Of a DNA stretch of 64,000 nt, positions 39-32,264 are shown piece by piece (the first letter of the stretch is position 1; each line of letters begins with the position of its first letter). Below the pieces are notes generated by a model. The model saw only the letters and a list, made by a program, of their open reading frames with translations. It was not told the DNA's origin and made no database searches. The stretch spans positions 1 to 64,000 of the forward strand of contig NZ_JACLQD010000004.1 in NCBI RefSeq assembly GCF_014243445.1, written 5' to 3'. This DNA comes from Paragemmobacter straminiformis. Lineage in GTDB: Bacteria > Pseudomonadota > Alphaproteobacteria > Rhodobacterales > Rhodobacteraceae. Both the position numbers and the translations under genes were made by a program.

Positions 39-1786
<1,748 letters not shown>

Positions 1787-1790
<4 letters not shown>

Positions 1791-1996
1791 GAGGAACTCC
1801 GTTCGAGCAGATTCTTTGGTTGAGGATGCCGTAAAGGATTCTGAATGGAAAATCGAAAGTATGGTGGCGCGCGGCTGCGCCTTCGGCTTAATCTGTAAGC
1901 CTCTGCCTCCGGCGTTCGACCCGAAGCGGCGGCTCTGGTAGTCGCGTTCTTCACGGCGACGACGGCGACGAGGGAGATTATCTTTTTGAGGTCCAT
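1787..1996 (-). CDS. small hypothetical protein upstream of the recombinase
   Basis: A 69-residue frame starting MDLKKIISLV, with AAAGGA about 8 nt before the ATG. Its TGA stop overlaps the TTG start of the recombinase, so the two could be translationally coupled. The N-terminus is hydrophobic (IISLVAVVAV) and the rest is basic and Arg/Pro-rich. I recognise no family. The good ribosome binding site and coupling argue that it is translated; a regulatory leader peptide or an excision helper are both possible, neither shown. Confidence 0.45.
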
Positions 1997-2076
1997 CCGA
2001 GGTTCCTTTCCAGTCGAGACGATCAAACCTCTGTCCGGACAGCTACCAGATGGCCCCGAGTGAGTTCCCTGCAGAT

Positions 2077-2102
2077 GCGCCCGTCCCGAAAGGGGCGGGC
2101 GC
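2077..2102. repeat. strong hairpin between hypothetical genes
   Basis: GCGCCCGTCCC-GAAA-GGGGCGGGCGC forms an 11-bp stem (one G-T pair) with a GAAA tetraloop. On the plus strand it is followed by ATTTTG, but the flanking genes are on the minus strand, where it would act as an attenuator or transcript stabiliser between the 2187-2615 gene and the recombinase pair. The rest of 1997-2186 shows nothing else I can support. Confidence 0.45.
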
Positions 2103-2186
2103 AGCCATTTTGTGATCCCCGCGGCCCGGTCGTTTCCAGCAGTGGAAAGCGGGGTTGGTTGATGGGATGGACCGCGGGGAACGGCC

Positions 2187-2615
2187 TCACCGGATCTTGC
2201 CGGTGCGGGTTCGGCGATAGCGCTGGATCGCGGCTTCCGCGTCGAGCAGGTCGCGGACCCTGATGACGAGGATGCAGGCGGTCTGGATGTCGGCAACGAA
2301 CGACAGCAGCGCCGTATCTGCTTCGCGGCTGTCCGTTACGACATTCGCGGCAGCACAGATCCGCATCAGCGACGCACTGGTCGAGTCGTCGACGAGATCC
2401 CCTCGATCAAGCAGGGCTTCGATCAGTGCGAGGTGGTCGCCAAGTTGCGCATAGTCATCTGCATCCAAATCTTCGGCAGTAGCGACCGCATCGCGCAAAG
2501 CTCTGTGGGCGTCGGCCAAAAGGTCTGTGATGCGATCAGCATCGGGCAGCTTTTGGTCGGGCGAATGCATCAGGATGCGATGCGTGTTCTGCGTCGGGAC
2601 GGTTGCTGAAAACAT
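2187..2615 (-). CDS. hypothetical protein of the mobile element
   Basis: A 142-residue acidic, helix-rich frame (for example DADDYAQLGDHLALIEALLD) ending in a basic tail RYRRTRTGKIR. No motif or family recognised. The start at 2615 is the longest; a second ATG at 2570 (MHSPDQK) is possible and neither has a clear ribosome binding site. It lies downstream of the MazF/PemK-like gene on the same strand with about 130 nt between. An antitoxin role for its neighbour is conceivable from position only. Confidence 0.55.
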   Translation of the reverse strand: MFSATVPTQNTHRILMHSPDQKLPDADRITDLLADAHRALRDAVATAEDLDADDYAQLGDHLALIEALLDRGDLVDDSTSASLMRICAAANVVTDSREADTALLSFVADIQTACILVIRVRDLLDAEAAIQRYRRTRTGKIR

Positions 2616-2747
2616 CGGTGGTCTTTCTGTTGTGAAGGGTAGGAAGTTGGGTGCGGTTTGCGGCGCGCGAGCTCGGCTTGGGCCGTGACGGGCGGGGCGA
2701 CGGGATCGGCTTCCGCGGGCGGTAGATGATCAGGCGGCAAGATGACA

Positions 2748-3215
2748 TTAGCGGCGCTCCTCCTCGCGTTGGTGGCGAGCAATGTCGGCTTCGGCGTGCA
2801 ACCGTCCGCGCACTGCGTTCAGTCGTTCAAAGGCGCGGCCTGTAAGCCGGCCGACACGGATCCCACCATCAGGTCGGATTGCTTTGCGGCGCAGACTCTG
2901 CCGGCTGACGAAGACACGCCGGGCAGCGCAGAAGCGGGTTGGTTGTTCCAAGCCTGCCGAGGCAAGCAGGGCGTCTTCCTCGACAAGAATGTCATAGCCC
3001 GTCCGGCGTGCCGCCTCTGCCGGCGCGCCATCCGCGATCAGCAGATAGGCGCGATCGCTGATTTTGTGGGTGTCGATCACCAGACAAGGGCGAGCCGTGT
3101 CGGTCTCGCCGCCAGTCGTCTTTGACGGGAACGGATAGTGCAGGACATCACCGATCGCGAAATCATCGGCGTTCGTGTCCTGCAGGCGGGTAGCGCTGTG
3201 GTTGGTCAAGGTCAT
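2748..3215 (-). CDS. MazF/PemK-like protein
   Basis: 155 residues from the ATG at 3215 (MTLTNHSATRL); longer frames upstream run into repeat DNA and are not credible. The body resembles the PemK/MazF fold: FAIGDVLHYPFPSKT, then ARPCLVIDTHK, then FCAARRVFVSRQSL near the end, matching the family pattern of an opening G-D-V strand, a central R-P-x-L-V strand and a closing strand. MazF proteins are ribosome-independent mRNA endonucleases in toxin-antitoxin pairs, usually 110-120 residues, so this one is somewhat long. No typical small antitoxin gene precedes it. The family assignment is from pattern recognition only. Confidence 0.5.
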   Translation of the reverse strand: MTLTNHSATRLQDTNADDFAIGDVLHYPFPSKTTGGETDTARPCLVIDTHKISDRAYLLIADGAPAEAARRTGYDILVEEDALLASAGLEQPTRFCAARRVFVSRQSLRRKAIRPDGGIRVGRLTGRAFERLNAVRGRLHAEADIARHQREEERR

Positions 3216-3345
3216 TCCTCGTGAGGGTGGGTTGTTATGCTGACCTGCTTCCGTTCCGGTATCTCTTTGGTCCGGCATCCGGTGTTCTGCTGCGGTCAAA
3301 TGACCCGCGCAGCAGAACACGGTGCCGGCCGCGCCTTGCGCCTCT

Positions 3346-3389
3346 TCGGGAGAGCGTCGAGAGGGTTGCCCTCTGGACCCCTTCGCGGG
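3346..3389. repeat. 44-bp dispersed hairpin repeat, copy 1
   Basis: A 44-bp segment identical to 4060-4103. Its centre is a short hairpin AGAGGG-TTG-CCCTCT followed by GGACCCC. It lies in the otherwise empty divergent region between the MazF/PemK-like gene and the 166-residue gene. Confidence 0.8.
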
Positions 3390-3479
3390 CAAAGAAAGCG
3401 GGACTTGCCAACTTGGCCGGCCGGAACAACAGTCGGCTTACGCAGAGTGCAGCGCGACAGCCGAAACGGGGCGTCCGAA

Positions 3480-3980
3480 ATGTCTGATGAGAATGAGATT
3501 GAGGACGACCCGAGTGAGGAACTCGAAGAAGGCCAAGATATCTGTCCCGTTTGCCGAACCTTGGTTTGGCCCGGCGCGATGGATTATTGCCAACATTACC
3601 TATGGACCCGTTGGGACGGCCAAATCATCTGGCCGTCATCCGAGGCGGAAGGACTGCTTCGCATCGCCAACGACTTTGTCGCTTCGGTTTACGATGCGGA
3701 AGAAGGCGGCTGGGCTGCATTAGCTTATGTCGCGCTTCGGGACGGTGGAAGTCCCGAGGCAGCCGAGTTCGTGGCGCAGGGATACAGCTTATCCACGGAA
3801 GATGTCGCCGATGCGCCAGATACAAAGATCGGCAAATGGCGAGAAACGGACGGAATGCTTTCAGGCAGCGGCGTTGCCTGTTTTGCCCCGATCGCTGCGG
3901 CGGCGTGGGCAGAACGGCGGTCGGTTGCGCTGAAGACGGCTCTGGCCGTCATCGGTAAGCAACGGCCAAATATCGACTGA
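3480..3980 (+). CDS. hypothetical protein with CPxC zinc-ribbon-like motif
   Basis: 166 residues from the ATG at 3480 (MSDENEIEDD). The reading frame is open further upstream, but that part overlaps the 44-bp repeat and reads as low-quality sequence, so this start is preferred. The N-terminus is very acidic, followed by CPVCRTLVWPGAMDYCQHYL, a likely Cys/His metal-binding knuckle at about residues 20-40. The remainder is mixed helical with GGWAALAYVAL. I do not recognise the family. It is the only plus-strand gene before the relaxase, from which it is separated by a hairpin array. Confidence 0.6.
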   Translation: MSDENEIEDDPSEELEEGQDICPVCRTLVWPGAMDYCQHYLWTRWDGQIIWPSSEAEGLLRIANDFVASVYDAEEGGWAALAYVALRDGGSPEAAEFVAQGYSLSTEDVADAPDTKIGKWRETDGMLSGSGVACFAPIAAAAWAERRSVALKTALAVIGKQRPNID

Positions 3981-4419
3981 TCGTATCGATGTGCTGAGCG
4001 TCGATGAACACCGGCATATCCAGAGCCGGGTTCTTCGATCGTGAAGGCAACGCACTTCGTCGGGAGAGCGTCGAGAGGGTTGCCCTCTGGACCCCTTCGC
4101 GGGAAGCGGGAGCGGGTTGGGGTTCGGGGAAGGGAGCGGAACGCCTTCCTCCGGGAGCTTGGGGAAGCCGGTGGGGAGTGCAGAACATCCCCTCGGTCCC
4201 GCGGAAGGCGGCCGGACAGGGTGCAGGGACAGGTGGCGAACGGTCCTTGCCCGGGGAGTCCAGAGGGGTGTGGAGCTTCCCTCCGGTCCGTCGGAAGGAC
4301 GCCAGGGGGGGCAGGGGGAGCGGCGAGCGATGACCCTGCCGAGGGTGTCCAGAGGGGTGTCGAGCCCCCTTTGGTCCCGCGGAAGGCGCGGGGACCGGGG
4401 CGGCGCCCCGGCGAACGAG
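3981..4419. repeat. array of GC-rich hairpin repeats upstream of the relaxase
   Basis: No credible gene. The first unit is the exact 44-bp repeat copy 2 at 4060-4103. Three degenerate units follow with the form G-run, short loop, C-run, then GGTCC and CGGAAGG; their GGTCC words fall near 4195, 4285 and 4373, about 90 bp apart. Each can fold into a small hairpin. Open frames here on both strands are Pro/Arg/Gly-rich by-products of the repeats. The array leads directly into the candidate transfer origin. Confidence 0.6.
4060..4103. repeat. 44-bp dispersed hairpin repeat, copy 2
   Basis: Identical over 44 bp to 3346-3389, with the same central AGAGGG-TTG-CCCTCT hairpin. It forms the first unit of the hairpin array that ends near 4390. 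Confidence 0.8.
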
Positions 4420-4475
4420 GCAAGTGGAACGGATGCGCCAACGGCGCAGGAGTGCCACTTGCTTAGTGAGTAGAC
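4420..4475. other. candidate oriT: nested inverted repeats
   Basis: An outer perfect 8-bp inverted repeat (GCAAGTGG at 4420-4427, CCACTTGC at 4455-4462) encloses a symmetric 6-nt internal loop on each side and a perfect inner 6-bp stem (TGCGCC, loop AAC, GGCGCA). It is followed by TTAGTGAGTAGACTT. Position about 100 bp upstream of the relaxase gene and the inverted-repeat-plus-flank architecture are those of transfer origins. The nick site cannot be placed from sequence alone. Confidence 0.5.
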
Positions 4476-4563
4476 TTCTGGCGCTTTCCTGAACCCGCAG
4501 GTTTTTTGTTTTGAAAGGCGGCGACCCATCTCCTTCTCGCCAACCGCGACAGGAGACCCCGCA

Positions 4564-5982
4564 ATGTCATTGGAGAACTACGAAAGCTTTGCCCGCAAAC
4601 GGGAAATCATCCGCCACCGCATCGTGCTACGCTTTGCGGAACTCTTCCCGAGTGGCCTTGCCGGCGTTGAAATGCACGCAAATCGCAAGGGCGGGAACCT
4701 CGAACACGTCGACCAGCAAAGGACCCGCGAAAACGAAATCCTGATCGGGGACGCCGATTGGCGCGCGAAGCTGGAAGCTGAGATTGAAGCCGCGCGCCTC
4801 GAAAATCTTGCCGAAGAGTTGGAAGCCCTCAAGCGTCGTAAGCGCCAGTCGGAGTGGGACGCTAGACGCCTCGAAGGAAAGGCGGACCCGTGGAAGGCGT
4901 CGAAGAAAGGGCCGCTGCGGGAAGTGATCCTGACCGCAGGCAAGGACTGGTTTGCCGAACGGGATCAGCTTGCGGAAATCTTGGACGAGAGCCGCCAGCA
5001 GTGGTTCGAGACGATGGCGGTCGAGTGGCTTAAGGCCAACTTCGGCGATGCCGTCGTGCACGCGCGGGCCGACCACGACGAGATGACCTTCCACATCCAC
5101 GCGGTCATAGCGCCGTGGTCCGAAAAGACGACTGCGCGGCGCGGCAAGCAGCGCGTTCTGCAACCGTCGGCCTATCCGATGCTTGCGTCCTATGAGGCAG
5201 CACAAGACAGCGTTGGAATAGCCTTCGCTACCATCGGTCTCGAGCGGGGGAGAAGAACGGCGGCTCTCCGGCGCGCTGCTACCAAGACAAGAAAAGATCG
5301 CGAGGAGCAGCGGGAAGCCCTGACTACCGCAGGTCAAGCCGTGCCCGAATACTTGGAAGAAGCAAAGGACCCCCTCATTCCAAGAAAGCGGCAGCACGTT
5401 CCAACGCCCGTCTGGTGGGCTGAAGAGACGCAGCGTCTTAATAAGAAGGAACGCGAATTGAAAGCGGCCGCTGTGGCTGATGCGGAACGCAAGGCAAAGC
5501 TGGAAGCAGAGCGCGCGGACATCGAGCAGCGCAAAGAGAACCTGACCGAGCGTGAGAAGGATGCCGACGAGTTGCTTCTGGTCATTGATGGGATAGCTGA
5601 GAATGCAGGTAGGGTCGAAGCGCGCGAGTATCGCCCGCGAACGCAACGGTTTCTCGATACCCTGAGGAAAGCCCGTGATGCGTTCCGCTCGAAGATAGAG
5701 CTGGACGCCGAAAAGAAACTCGCACAGGGGCGCGAGGCCATCGAGAAAGAGCGGAAGGCAGTCGAGACAGAACGCAAGGCTCTCGATGCGGAGCGCACGG
5801 CAGTGGAGCGCTTCAAGAGCCGCGTTTTGGGATTCGCCAAAAACGCCATCGCGACATTGCCGACTGAGGTTAAGCAACGATTTGTCGACGCCCTCAGGCC
5901 TGAGGCGGAGAAGGTCAAGGAAGCGGAAAAGTCGCTGCAAGAGTTGCGTAAGCGGGACCCCAACGGAAGTGCCGAGCGGTGA
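4564..5982 (+). CDS. MobV/Pre-family relaxase (mobilization protein)
   Basis: 472-residue protein expected to nick the transfer origin and pilot the strand during mobilization. Near the N-terminus, GVEMHANRKGGNLEHVDQ with a following RTRENEILIG resembles the first MobV motif; at about 165-185, HDEMTFHIHAVIAPW matches the metal-binding H-x-D-E-x-x-P-H-x-H motif, with F in place of P. The C-terminal half (about 290-470) is a long charged coiled coil, as in other Mob/Pre proteins. AGGAG lies about 10 nt before the ATG. It follows a nested inverted repeat that is a candidate oriT and precedes a small gene on the same strand. Confidence 0.85.
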   Translation: MSLENYESFARKREIIRHRIVLRFAELFPSGLAGVEMHANRKGGNLEHVDQQRTRENEILIGDADWRAKLEAEIEAARLENLAEELEALKRRKRQSEWDARRLEGKADPWKASKKGPLREVILTAGKDWFAERDQLAEILDESRQQWFETMAVEWLKANFGDAVVHARADHDEMTFHIHAVIAPWSEKTTARRGKQRVLQPSAYPMLASYEAAQDSVGIAFATIGLERGRRTAALRRAATKTRKDREEQREALTTAGQAVPEYLEEAKDPLIPRKRQHVPTPVWWAEETQRLNKKERELKAAAVADAERKAKLEAERADIEQRKENLTEREKDADELLLVIDGIAENAGRVEAREYRPRTQRFLDTLRKARDAFRSKIELDAEKKLAQGREAIEKERKAVETERKALDAERTAVERFKSRVLGFAKNAIATLPTEVKQRFVDALRPEAEKVKEAEKSLQELRKRDPNGSAER

Positions 5983-6103
5983 TCACGAGCGGCGTTCCGA
6001 CTGAAACAATACGTGATCAAAAAAGTGCAGCAGACCGCTTTTTCCTGCTGATGACGATACGAGGTCCTGATTATCCGCAAGCAACCAGAGAAAGGAAATC
6101 CGG

Positions 6104-6490
6104 ATGACCACCCTCGCCAACACCAAGACTAACTCGACTGATCCTCGCATCGCGAACGCGCTCGACAGACTCGCTACGATGATGGCGGCTGATGAGAAGC
6201 GGAAACTCAAAGAGCACTCCGCGCAGCGCAAAGCAGTCCTTGCGGCGTTCGAAGCTTGGCTTGATCGGGCTCGCTTGGCCGATCGTCAAGCGTTCCTCGA
6301 AACACTGGCCGCGCGCTCAACCGGCACCGCTGCAACGCGCATCGCAGGCTTTGCAGAACGAATGGTGGAAGGAGCGGAAGCGATGCCCGCTGCACTTGGA
6401 AGCTCGATTGAGCGGGCGCCGGTGCCTTCTGTCCAGTCCGGGCCGAACGGAGGGGCACAATCGCCTAAGACCACGAGCGCGGCAAACTGA
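6104..6490 (+). CDS. hypothetical protein downstream of the relaxase
   Basis: 128 residues, helical in the first 90 (DRLATMMAADEKRKLKEHSAQ) with a low-complexity Ser/Pro/Ala tail. AGAAAGGAA lies just before the ATG. It sits 121 nt downstream of the relaxase on the same strand, with an intrinsic terminator after it, so the two probably form one mobilization operon. An accessory role in transfer is inferred from position; no family recognised. Confidence 0.6.
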   Translation: MTTLANTKTNSTDPRIANALDRLATMMAADEKRKLKEHSAQRKAVLAAFEAWLDRARLADRQAFLETLAARSTGTAATRIAGFAERMVEGAEAMPAALGSSIERAPVPSVQSGPNGGAQSPKTTSAAN

Positions 6491-6512
6491 ATCGCCTTGA
6501 AAGAGGTTTGAC

Positions 6513-6541
6513 AAGGGGCGGCACCAAAAGGTGTCGCCTTT
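6513..6541 (+). terminator. intrinsic terminator after the mobilization operon
   Basis: GGCGGCACC-AAAA-GGTGTCGCC forms a 9-bp stem with one G-T pair, followed by TTT. It separates the mob genes from the HD/ATPase gene, implying that the latter has its own promoter in 6542-6679. Confidence 0.7.
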
Positions 6542-6679
6542 AAAGCTTCAAGACTGGGCAAGCGGATAGCCACAGTCAGAAAATCCCTTCCGCATAGCAG
6601 AAGCCAGTGCCATAGTTGGAGGTGAAATATTGCTTGCGGTTGCGTGTGAATCGACCGTGCGATTGAAAGGAGATTTTGA

Positions 6680-9355
6680 ATGGGATTCCGTGACTCGAAC
6701 ATTTGGAAGGCTGCCTTCACGAACGAATCTTCAGGAACTTGGGGCGCGGAGCGCACACGGCTTATGACCGAACTGCTCGGTGCGCGTGAACGTGTCGAAG
6801 GCCTACTCACCGGCATCCCTCAAGATTGCAGAGATTTAACTATTCACGATGTCACACATTTGGACGCACTTTGGGAAGCCGCAGACCTCATTTGCGGAGA
6901 ACGTATATTACTGAACCCGGCTGAGACATTTGTGCTTGGCCTTGCCATTTTGACTCACGATGCGGGTCTGACCTCTCTGGCATACGAGGGCGGAAAAGCC
7001 GCACTCAAGAAAACTCAAATTTGGCAAGACTTTGCCGCCCAATATTTTTATAGTCGATCAGGAGTTGATACTTCGGAACAACTAACTCCATCGCAGGAAG
7101 GGGAGGTGCTGTTCTCCGTCCTGAGAGCACTTCACGCAGATGAAGCAATACGTCTCTGTAAGGCGGAATGGAAATACGGTTCGTCAGGCCCCATCCACAT
7201 TGTTTCTGACCCTGAGCTGCGTGAGGCATATGCCGAAACAGCTGGAAGGATCGCAGCAAGTCACAACTGGGACTCGAAAAAACTAACAGATGAACTTAGT
7301 TCATCAATCGGTGGTAGTCCAAAACTACCATCAGACTGGACCATCAACGAAGTAAAACTTGCTTGTATCTTGCGCTGTGCCGACGCTGCACAAGTTGATC
7401 GGCGTCGTGCGCCATTAGCATTATACTCAGCAATTAAGCCAAGTGGCTACTCTCAGTTGCATTGGGAGGCGCAATTAAAACTCAACAAGCCACACATAAA
7501 AAATGACACGATCTATTTTTCCTCATCCTCAACGTTCGCAACTTCCGAGGCGGACGCCTGGTGGGTTGCATATGATCTAGCAAGAGTGCTCGATTTTGAG
7601 CTAAAAAGCGCAAATGCAATTCTTACGGATATCGGTGAAAATACACTGATTGCACAAAGAGTGGCAGGAGCGGATACACCTGATGCATTCGCAAAGTATG
7701 TTAAAACAGCGCAGTGGCGCCCCGTTGATGCAAGCGTAAAGGTAACGGATCCGCTGCGTTTGGCTTCAACATTGGGCGGACGAAACTTATATGGTAATGA
7801 CCCAAGAGTGCCATTTCGTGAATTAATACAGAATGCCGCCGATGCAATTAGGGCAAAGCGAGCACTTGAAAAACGTGGGCAGGATTTCGGTCAAATTACA
7901 ATTACTATAGAGCAAGATCCTTCAAACGCTGACGACTGTTTGGTGTCAATTGACGACAACGGCGTCGGAATGAGTGAGCGTGTGCTTTCCGGTTCACTCG
8001 TAGATTTCGGGCGATCGTTTTGGAATTCGAGCGCGGTTCGAGAAGAGTTTCCAGGACTTCAGGGAACAAACTTCCAAAAAATCGGTAAGTTTGGAATTGG
8101 GTTTTTCTCTGTTTTTTCCTTTTCTAAGGCAGTCCGAGTAATATCGCGGCGACACGATAGTGCTGTCTCCGACGCTAAAGTTCTCGAGTTTCGTAGCTTT
8201 TCGAATCGCCCTCTATTGAGGGCGGCGATGATTAAAGAACTTCCGATGGATACCCATACGCGTGTGTCTTTCTCATTAGCGAAGAAGTTTTTTGAGTTTT
8301 CCACCGCAGGATTGGTGCTGCGTCGAGCTTACTTTGAAGATGACGATTGGGGCGGAAGGCGGAATGACCTGATTATGGAAGTTGCGCGACTTGTTTCATT
8401 TCTTGATATAAAAGTTGTGATTTCAGATCGAAGGAACGGGAAAAATTTTGTCCATCAACCAGACATATATGAAGTGGATGCGTCGAACTTTTTGACTGGA
8501 CTTTACGATCAGAAGGAAGCTCGCCGGTTCTTTGATCCGGTCAAATTGCTTGCTGCATTAAAAGCCGAAGATGGAGATGCTTACGGTCGGGCTGCTCTTG
8601 ATGTCGATGCGCTGCTTGATAGACAGACGCGATCTGTGGGCTTCGTCTCTGTAGGGGGCATAGTATCGCAGGGGCGTAGCTTGGAGTTGAAGTCCTCTCT
8701 TGGTGAATCTTTGCCATATATGGGTGTGATTGAAGGAGATACGGAGCGAGCGGCCCGGGATTTTGTGTCTAGCAAGGTGCCGCAGTCAGTAGTGGATAAT
8801 TGGTTTAACGCTCAAATTAATGCCGTAGATGATGGTGTTCTTACCACTTCTGAACGAATGAAGCTTTCCGCCTTTGCTTTCCTAGCTACTGGCTTTGAAA
8901 CAAGCTTGCCTTTCGCTTTTCATATGGGTCGCGTAAAGACAGTTTCTGAAATTCGTGAGGCAATTCGTAAGACGCAAACTATTCTATTGCCTATGTGGTG
9001 GCGTTATGATTCTTGGGTCGAACTCCGCGGTTACAACGATCTACAGCCAGATTACTTCGAGGCTGATTTGTCGGTTGATGTCTTCGTATTGTCGGAGGGT
9101 TCGCAGCGCTTGGTCGATGATGAAGATGCTAGGACGCTTAGACGAAACGAGAGTATGAAACTTTCAGCAACGGTGCTTTCATCTAAGTGGAAGACTGCTG
9201 CCCCATTGCTGAAGCTCATCCACGAGACTTGGGGTGTGGAACCAAGTGTAGAAATCAGAAAGGCCTCAATTTTTCAGACACGCGTATCGTCCTTGTCGGG
9301 GGCGCGTTGGGTGCTGGCTTTGGACAAGCCGGTGAATGTTGGTGCGAAGCACTAA
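6680..9355 (+). CDS. HD-domain / HSP90-like (GHKL) ATPase protein
   Basis: 891 residues. An N-terminal HD-type region has TIHDVTHLDALWEAADLI at about 54-71 and LTHDAG near 92, with ADAAQVDRR as a possible later metal ligand. A GHKL ATPase domain follows: FRELIQNAADAIRAK near 378, DDNGVGM near 425 and GKFGIGFFS near 469, the ATP-binding motifs of the HSP90 family. The last 400 residues are not assigned. AAAGGAG lies 9 nt before the ATG, and a terminator upstream makes it a separate unit. The gene is clearly A+T-richer than its neighbours, a sign of recent transfer. HD plus HSP90-like proteins are found as cargo of mobile elements; an anti-phage or stress role is inference. It is not HtpG, which lacks the HD part. 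Confidence 0.75.
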   Translation: MGFRDSNIWKAAFTNESSGTWGAERTRLMTELLGARERVEGLLTGIPQDCRDLTIHDVTHLDALWEAADLICGERILLNPAETFVLGLAILTHDAGLTSLAYEGGKAALKKTQIWQDFAAQYFYSRSGVDTSEQLTPSQEGEVLFSVLRALHADEAIRLCKAEWKYGSSGPIHIVSDPELREAYAETAGRIAASHNWDSKKLTDELSSSIGGSPKLPSDWTINEVKLACILRCADAAQVDRRRAPLALYSAIKPSGYSQLHWEAQLKLNKPHIKNDTIYFSSSSTFATSEADAWWVAYDLARVLDFELKSANAILTDIGENTLIAQRVAGADTPDAFAKYVKTAQWRPVDASVKVTDPLRLASTLGGRNLYGNDPRVPFRELIQNAADAIRAKRALEKRGQDFGQITITIEQDPSNADDCLVSIDDNGVGMSERVLSGSLVDFGRSFWNSSAVREEFPGLQGTNFQKIGKFGIGFFSVFSFSKAVRVISRRHDSAVSDAKVLEFRSFSNRPLLRAAMIKELPMDTHTRVSFSLAKKFFEFSTAGLVLRRAYFEDDDWGGRRNDLIMEVARLVSFLDIKVVISDRRNGKNFVHQPDIYEVDASNFLTGLYDQKEARRFFDPVKLLAALKAEDGDAYGRAALDVDALLDRQTRSVGFVSVGGIVSQGRSLELKSSLGESLPYMGVIEGDTERAARDFVSSKVPQSVVDNWFNAQINAVDDGVLTTSERMKLSAFAFLATGFETSLPFAFHMGRVKTVSEIREAIRKTQTILLPMWWRYDSWVELRGYNDLQPDYFEADLSVDVFVLSEGSQRLVDDEDARTLRRNESMKLSATVLSSKWKTAAPLLKLIHETWGVEPSVEIRKASIFQTRVSSLSGARWVLALDKPVNVGAKH

Positions 9356-9391
9356 TATGTGGGAGCTCGGGTTCGCGTCAGTCCAAGGCGC

Positions 9392-9405
9392 GCCCCCGCA
9401 ACCAA
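9392..9405 (+). repeat. attR: 14-bp copy of tRNA-fMet 3' end
   Basis: Exact copy of GCCCCCGCAACCAA from the tRNA acceptor end, here without the rest of a tRNA. It marks the right end of the element; chromosomal sequence originally adjacent to the tRNA begins immediately after it. Confidence 0.85.
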
Positions 9406-31538: not shown

Positions 31539-31921
31539 GGCGCGGCCTGCGGCAGTTCGAGGACCGAGAGGGACAGCACGGGGCCATTCGGCCCCCGGAT
31601 GGCAAGGTCGCGACGCGCCAGATTTTGCGACAGCCGTTGCGTGTCTGCCTGCCAGACAAGCCCCCGGACATCGCCTTGCCCCGCGCTGCCTTCGGCGAGA
31701 AGCACCCTTGCGAGATTGCGCGCCGCGGTGCTGCGGGCCTGACGGTCGGCAACACGGGCAAAGGTTGCGAAGGTGTCGAAGGCGGCGACCAGCATCATGG
31801 TGGACAGGGCAAGGGCCGCCAGAACCTCGACCAGTGAAAAGCCCTGCTCGGCGCTAGGGCCACAGGGTGATGCGGCCGGTGGGCGCGGCGATATCGGCGC
31901 CGTATTCCGTGCCGTCGGCAC
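31535..31921 (-). CDS. gspI: minor pseudopilin GspI (start uncertain)
   Basis: The body is clear: EQG-FSLVEVLAALALS is the prepilin cleavage and membrane motif, followed by about 100 residues ending LSVLELPQAAP. The start is a problem: no ATG, GTG or TTG stands in the usual place a few codons before the motif. The nearest in-frame candidate is GTG at 31921, which gives a 30-residue leader and overlaps gspH by 68 nt. A rare start codon or a base error near 31860 are alternatives. Confidence 0.7.
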   Translation of the reverse strand: MPTARNTAPISPRPPAASPCGPSAEQGFSLVEVLAALALSTMMLVAAFDTFATFARVADRQARSTAARNLARVLLAEGSAGQGDVRGLVWQADTQRLSQNLARRDLAIRGPNGPVLSLSVLELPQAAP

Positions 31922-32264
31922 GGGACAGGACGATGCGGCCGCCGTTGCTGGTGCCGTCGGGACGGAACCAGACGGGGCCGGACAATGCCGCTTCGGCGCC
32001 GGTCGAAAGGGTTGCGATGTCTGTTTCGCCCTGTCTTGCCACAATGTCGCGGCCGCTGGCTGCAAGGGTGAGGTATTGGCCCGAACGCATTGCCGCGACG
32101 CGGGTATCGACGAGGAAGCCGTCCAGCCTTGCGCGGTCAAGCATCGTGCCCCCCGGAAGGCCGCGGCCAAGGACAAGGCCGCTGGCAAGGGCGAGGATCG
32201 CAAGGACGAGAAGCATCTCGACCAGCGTGAGACCGGCTTCGCCGTCATGGGGTGATGTCGGCAT
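31854..32264 (-). CDS. gspH: minor pseudopilin GspH
   Basis: 136 residues from the ATG at 32264, with GAAGG about 7 nt upstream. Cleavage motif EAG-LTLVEMLLVLAILAL. The rest matches GspH length and includes DGTEYGADIAAPTGRITLWP at the end. It overlaps gspG by 20 nt. Confidence 0.85.
   Translation of the reverse strand: MPTSPHDGEAGLTLVEMLLVLAILALASGLVLGRGLPGGTMLDRARLDGFLVDTRVAAMRSGQYLTLAASGRDIVARQGETDIATLSTGAEAALSGPVWFRPDGTSNGGRIVLSRADGTEYGADIAAPTGRITLWP

Follow-up and report, generated by a model that had tools for sequence, protein, structure and literature searches.

A mobilizable element of Paragemmobacter straminiformis carries an HD-CE domain fused to an HSP90-like ATPase, a candidate single-gene anti-phage system

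Results

Gene and mobile element

The window analysed here is a 64,000-nucleotide stretch of the Paragemmobacter straminiformis genome (contig NZ_JACLQD010000004.1, positions 1 to 64,000). At its left end an element is integrated at a tRNA gene, and the gene under study closes this element on the right. The features are listed below.

39..115, + strand: tRNA-Met (CAT), the integration site
72..1790, − strand: large serine recombinase (Resolvase, Recombinase and zinc-ribbon domains)
103..116, + strand: attL core, GCCCCCGCAACCAA
4564..5982, + strand: relaxase-like protein (Mob_Pre), mobilization
6491..6679, + strand: gap of 189 bp ahead of the HD-CE/HSP90 gene, a possible promoter of its own
6680..9355, + strand: gene of the HD-CE + HSP90-like (N and middle domain) protein, an uninterrupted ORF of 891 aa
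6833..7606, + strand: HD-CE domain (PF24391), residues 52–309 (Pfam, E = 3.1e-49)
7743..8176, + strand: HSP90-type ATP-binding (GHKL) core, about residues 355–499 (Pfam, NCBIfam and conserved residues)
8270..8902, + strand: HSP90-like middle-domain region, about residues 531–741 (structure match and profile alignment)
9392..9405, + strand: attR core, GCCCCCGCAACCAA, 37 bp past the stop codon of the HD-CE/HSP90 gene

Exactly two copies of the core sequence are present in the window, one at 103 and one at 9392. The site is empty in two congeneric genomes, G390 and G401, where the tRNA end is joined directly to sequence resembling that to the right of 9405; the comparison includes GCGCCCCGTCCAAAACCAC versus GAGCCCCGTCCAGAACCAC. 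The two att cores and the empty sites together define an element of 9.29 kb, from about 103 to 9392. The recombinase gene ends inside tRNA-Met on the opposite strand, so that integration there supplies its last codons. These are read antisense through the 3' part of the tRNA gene, giving the C-terminus ...VAGAGFEPAAFRL. No conjugation machinery was found among the ORFs scanned, and the element is therefore mobilizable at most. The preliminary description had placed the gene as cargo of a mobilizable element and as the last gene ahead of attR; the recombinase, the relaxase, the att repeats, the empty site and the position of the attR core bear out both statements.

Between the recombinase and the relaxase, G+C-rich direct repeats were observed at 3338–4399 (65 nt twice, 33 nt three times and 32 nt twice), possibly an origin of transfer or a replication region. 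Another element occupies a second tRNA-Met of this genome, on contig C16. Its recombinase (L072 on C16, 42–1727) is 37% identical to that of the window and likewise ends in VAGAGFEPAAFRL. The right att of the C16 element, near 31.85 kb, precedes a scar resembling the end of the window recombinase (C16, about 31844–31976). A second copy of the window element on C16, suspected from this recombinase-like end, was rejected, as only the short scar is there.

The G+C fraction of the HD-CE/HSP90 gene is 0.481. The remainder of the element has 0.605 and the right flank 0.652, and within that flank every stretch of 2676 bp reaches at least 0.573. The gene is thus clearly poorer in G+C than its surroundings, as had been described. 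It had also been credited with its own promoter space. The 189-bp gap is present, but a consensus search recognised no sigma-70-like promoter in it, so that the space is to be read as a gap and not as a demonstrated promoter.

HD-CE domain

The fusion of an HD domain to an HSP90-like ATPase, proposed from the sequence at the outset, was recovered by Pfam as HD-CE and HATPase_c_3 matches within the single ORF of 891 aa. Both exceed their curated cut-offs, and neither can be put down to chance. The HD-CE match covers 258 residues of the N-terminal part and scores 168.5 bits against a cut-off of 27, and the same profile matched all 37 family members tested.

Residue conservation was assessed in an alignment of 41 diverse homologues with 22–44% identity to the window protein. 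HD-type residues had been expected near 54–95, where H56, H60, H93 and D94 are located. The HD part is richer than this first reading, since H152, H195 and D235 are invariant as well. All 41 homologues have these seven residues unchanged, which speaks against the possibility, raised beforehand, that the HD residues are not conserved. Two-metal members of the HD superfamily show the same order, H-HD-H-H-D. The HxxxH arrangement of H56 and H60 also recalls cyclic-nucleotide phosphodiesterases, whose first histidine is the general acid; we take this as a lead.

The HD part alone was modelled with a pLDDT of 93.4. Comparison by VIA-align put HD proteins at the top, with Z values that are moderate for a helical domain: PPX/GppA (Z 12.0, rmsd 3.7 Å, 185 residues), TbrPDEB1 (Z 10.5, rmsd 4.8, 237 residues) and many further phosphodiesterases (Z about 10, rmsd about 5 Å, 217–241 residues). 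Foldseek returned no match to the HD model under E = 0.001, and a sequence search of the HD part against PDB chains gave no match to any solved structure. The fold matches are nevertheless credible because those listed all belong to the HD superfamily and because the metal residues are invariant. By sequence and predicted model, HD-CE is most likely an HD phosphohydrolase domain of the metal-dependent type. It resembles PPX/GppA and the class I cyclic-nucleotide phosphodiesterases in predicted fold and in the conserved H/HD/H/H/D metal-site pattern of the sequence, but differs from them in having no detectable sequence similarity and other partner domains. The Pfam entry PF24391 names the domain only, and literature and database searches found no function, substrate or structure for it.

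HSP90-like region

HATPase_c_3 was matched over residues 381–497 (Pfam, E = 5.1e-8). NCBIfam HSP90 models matched residues 369–493 with E values of 4e-17 and 5e-15, far under their full-length cut-offs, and TRAP1 matched the ATP-site region with E = 1.5e-25. E381, N385, D388, D426, G428, G430, M431, G469, G472 and G474 are invariant in the 41 homologues. The GHKL ATP site described as intact near 378, 425 and 469 is accordingly present, with E381/N385, D426 and G469 at these places.

About 400 residues past the ATP site had been left unassigned. A model of the full-length protein was predicted from an alignment of 37 rows, with the plasmid-record homologues L007 and L008 left out, and reached a pLDDT of 85.9 and a pTM of 0.79. 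Its best HSP90 structure was Hsc82 (6xlg), with a Z of 22.0 and an rmsd of 4.7 Å over 401 aligned residues; model residues 358–863 map to residues 9–526 of the Hsc82 chain. Profile–profile alignment of residues 345–891 with 14 HtpG proteins of the class gave E = 2.6e-29. In this alignment R693 stands opposite the arginine of NISRE and G682 opposite the glycine of RGVVDS, and both residues are invariant in 41 of 41 homologues. The arginine of NISRE is the catalytic arginine of HSP90. The structure match and the HtpG alignment indicate that the stretch described as unassigned is mainly HSP90 middle domain, and that part of the description is superseded. Conservation is poor past residue 740, and the last 150 residues or so are family-specific and less conserved.

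The sequence and the model together identify an HSP90 N-terminal plus middle domain with a complete set of ATPase residues. The structural match ends at about Hsc82 residue 526 and contains no counterpart of the C-terminal dimerisation domain of HSP90, so that any mode of dimerisation is a guess. The HtpG equivalog model NF003555 gave 55 bits against a cut-off of 371, which marks a distant HSP90-like protein and not HtpG. With the HSP90 family (HtpG, Hsc82 and TRAP1) the window protein has in common the ATP-binding and middle domains and the positions of the catalytic glutamate and arginine; unlike that family, it carries the HSP90 part fused behind an HD hydrolase.

Distribution of homologues

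The protein or its domain was found in 4 of 385 genomes in a class-wide search, with the HSP90 part attached in all of them, and a homologue was found in 6 of 398 genomes of the phylum, a rate of about 1–1.5% of genomes in class or phylum. None of the 18 other genomes of the genus has a homologue, and no match was found in E. coli DNA. Among genome contigs, 46 loci were detected, belonging to at least nine phyla: Pseudomonadota, Actinomycetota, Bacillota, Bacteroidota, Verrucomicrobiota, Acidobacteriota, Chloroflexota, Ignavibacteriota and Spirochaetota. Three homologue loci were found in plasmid records. Viral contigs gave five loci with an alignment as query and no match with the single window protein. 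Phage records gave no match to the window protein, and with the prophage homologue L059 as query only ATP-site matches covering 14–21% of the query.

Nearly all intact copies measure 820–930 aa and have one architecture. The homologue tree requires 4 changes for Pseudomonadota and 2 for each of four other phyla; the prophage and plasmid copies fall inside it. The tree agrees with horizontal transfer without proving it. Seven copies are broken (L006, L037, L038, L046, L047, L049 and L050), partly perhaps by errors in the assembly of metagenome bins. The copy of genome G022, which belongs to the family of the window genome but to a different genus, is interrupted by stops (L006/L126). Frame-broken copies of this kind suggest repeated loss.

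Two side observations concern relatives of the protein. Chryseobacterium gwangjuense encodes, beside an ordinary copy, a second and longer HD-CE + HATPase protein of 1141 aa (L118, 3975–7397), which points to a sister subfamily. A search of the window's own genome for HtpG gave no match; in the class sample, 20 of 41 genomes encode HtpG.

Some copies lie in P2-like prophages. The L059 homologue (3191–5746, + strand) sits between a gpA gene (269–2578, + strand) and a portal gene (5825–6844, − strand), with the terminase following. The interval between gpA and the portal gene (gpQ) of P2-like prophages is a hotspot of anti-phage systems (PMC9122126), and the L059 copy occupies this very position. 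The L058 homologue starts 37 bp past a P2-type repressor gene and the L025 homologue about 233 bp past a gpA fragment. The L056 homologue is followed by a Sie-like superinfection-exclusion gene.

Gene neighbourhoods

The neighbours of 47–50 loci, at most three genes to either side (275 proteins in all), were scanned with PADLOC at E ≤ 1e-10. The matches include a CBASS cyclase, AbiEi/AbiEii, AbiLi, PD-Lambda-5, LmuA and LmuB of Lamassu, DpdF, SoFic and PsyrT, together with type I specificity subunits and several PDC candidates. In two neighbour sets 103 and 115 PADLOC families were matched. The control consisted of 125 genes located elsewhere on these contigs, drawn from 25 of the genomes surveyed; they matched three PADLOC families, all generic (mad2, Csa3). 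With these generic families set aside, defence genes make up at least 15 of 275 neighbours, a lower-bound count of proteins from the families named among the matches listed, against 0 of 125 controls (Fisher p of about 0.003 for 15). The survey for enrichment near defence genes that had been called for thus gave a positive result. Patchy presence, defence neighbours and copies in P2-like prophages also speak against a mainly housekeeping position, the other outcome that had been set against the defence reading.

When ten chosen neighbours were compared with PADLOC, one matched, a PDC-S06 gene next to L013 (E = 1.7e-158). On the Zymomonas plasmid pZMOB03 the homologue is followed by a TIR-TPR gene. 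A Pfam tally of the neighbours contains ordinary, metabolic genes at many loci, as is expected for islands in varied places.

Clustering of the neighbours at 55–56 loci revealed no conserved partner gene, so that a single gene probably suffices. A DUF2157-like membrane protein (about 190 aa) was considered as a general partner and rejected, being found near only four actinobacterial or chloroflexal copies (L021, 9325–9903; L024, 12660–13229; also L034 and L052). It may be a local partner at the actinobacterial copies and the one chloroflexal copy.

Comparison with known systems

A profile search against known defence families, one of the checks proposed initially, was made with PADLOC 2023. 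It has no model for the window protein and gave only weak local matches over the ATP site, to TmtA, which we take to be the Tiamat protein. The two have a GHKL ATP-site stretch in common (E = 9.2e-6, 109 residues). The window protein matches 89 of 1655 TmtA profile positions and no counterpart of its HD part was seen there; identity with Tiamat was rejected, the profile not being matched over its full length.

The closest tested precedent in working is VcSduA, a Shedu protein with a GHKL ATPase from Vibrio cholerae WASA that protects against T1-like phages (PMC12137116). It is a single anti-phage protein in which the ATPase and a clamp-like middle domain are proposed to control the effector; control of the nuclease by the ATPase is put forward as a hypothesis in that study, which also includes variants of the ATP-site glutamate and the nuclease lysine (PMC12137116). 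The effector of VcSduA is a C-terminal PD-(D/E)xK nuclease (DUF4263), whereas the window protein has an N-terminal HD hydrolase. No DUF4263 match was found in the window protein by Pfam at E ≤ 1, and it is therefore not a Shedu member. A literature search found no paper on the HD-CE + HSP90-like architecture, an absence that is weak since subscription literature was not covered, and no phage assay of any family member was found in the literature searched.

Discussion

The reading that we favour, with reasonable though limited confidence, is an anti-phage system made up of one gene, whose product would use an ATP-driven clamp to gate a nucleotide-cleaving HD effector. An anti-phage role is probable in view of the distribution, the neighbours, the carriage by prophages, the VcSduA precedent and the intact enzyme and clamp. 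The intact HSP90 machinery predicted here, including the catalytic arginine of the middle domain, is in keeping with the earlier idea of a hydrolase under the control of an HSP90-like clamp. That ATP gates the HD site is suggested by the fusion itself. We infer likewise the sensing by the HSP90 part, the effector role of the HD part and the anti-phage outcome.

In the proposed cycle, the HD site would be held inactive in the resting cell. A cue of infection, which might be a phage protein bound as a client, a nucleotide change or a change in the state of the cell, would be bound by the HSP90-like part. Upon binding of ATP the clamp would close as a dimer, and the closed dimer would let the HD site hydrolyse a nucleotide, or a nucleotide-derived signal, needed by the phage or the host. 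Replication would then halt, or the cell would become dormant or die. Hydrolysis of ATP through E381 and R693 would reset the protein. A narrower version, in which the HSP90 part is an immune sensor, a phage protein is its client and ATP-dependent closure switches on the fused phosphodiesterase-type effector, is possible but doubtful.

Cargo that acts against host signalling was weighed as an alternative. The HD phosphodiesterase would destroy the cyclic-nucleotide or oligonucleotide alarm signals of CBASS, Thoeris or type III CRISPR and so shield the element or prophage from host immunity, with no protection of the host itself. The predicted fold matches class I cyclic-nucleotide phosphodiesterases over 217–241 residues, the invariant HxxxH recalls their motif, and the carriers are mobile elements and prophages. 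To our knowledge, however, the known anti-signal enzymes are small and have no need of an ATP clamp, and the neighbours, as far as the tallies name them, are defence and not anti-defence genes; this explanation appears unlikely. An enzyme of stress or proteostasis, that is, an HSP90 paralogue whose HD part tunes (p)ppGpp, polyphosphate or another alarmone to the general benefit of the host, is also judged unlikely. Exopolyphosphatase/GppA enzymes act on pppGpp and polyphosphate, and their HD domains are the best structural matches of the predicted HD model; the HSP90 N-terminal and middle part is complete, and no HtpG match was obtained in the window's own genome. Nevertheless, the gene is rare, patchy and mobile and was found in none of the 18 congeners, several copies are broken, and the neighbourhoods are rich in defence genes. 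A housekeeping chaperone is set low because of the patchy distribution.

The gene might instead encode a toxin or serve the selfish maintenance of the element, without acting against phages. Such a role would account for a last gene of a small mobilizable element with its own upstream gap and a foreign composition. The 55 loci contain no conserved small antitoxin partner, however, and a large, apparently energy-driven protein with conserved catalysis is unlike typical toxins of toxin–antitoxin systems. We consider this explanation very improbable.

Fusions of GHKL ATPases to effectors are only starting to be recognised in phage defence, with VcSduA as the example. The present protein has an HSP90-like switch that keeps the catalytic glutamate and arginine, with an HD hydrolase as its output. 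If the favoured reading is true, it adds a widespread one-gene defence family and raises the question of whether the client of an HSP90 can be a phage protein. Should the client-sensor version hold, this one-gene family would be a widely transferred one with a switch in common with the eukaryotic chaperone. Each of the two catalytic centres can be inactivated on its own, which would open a classic chaperone cycle to study as a signal gate, with inhibitors of the HSP90 ATP site as possible probes of the switch.
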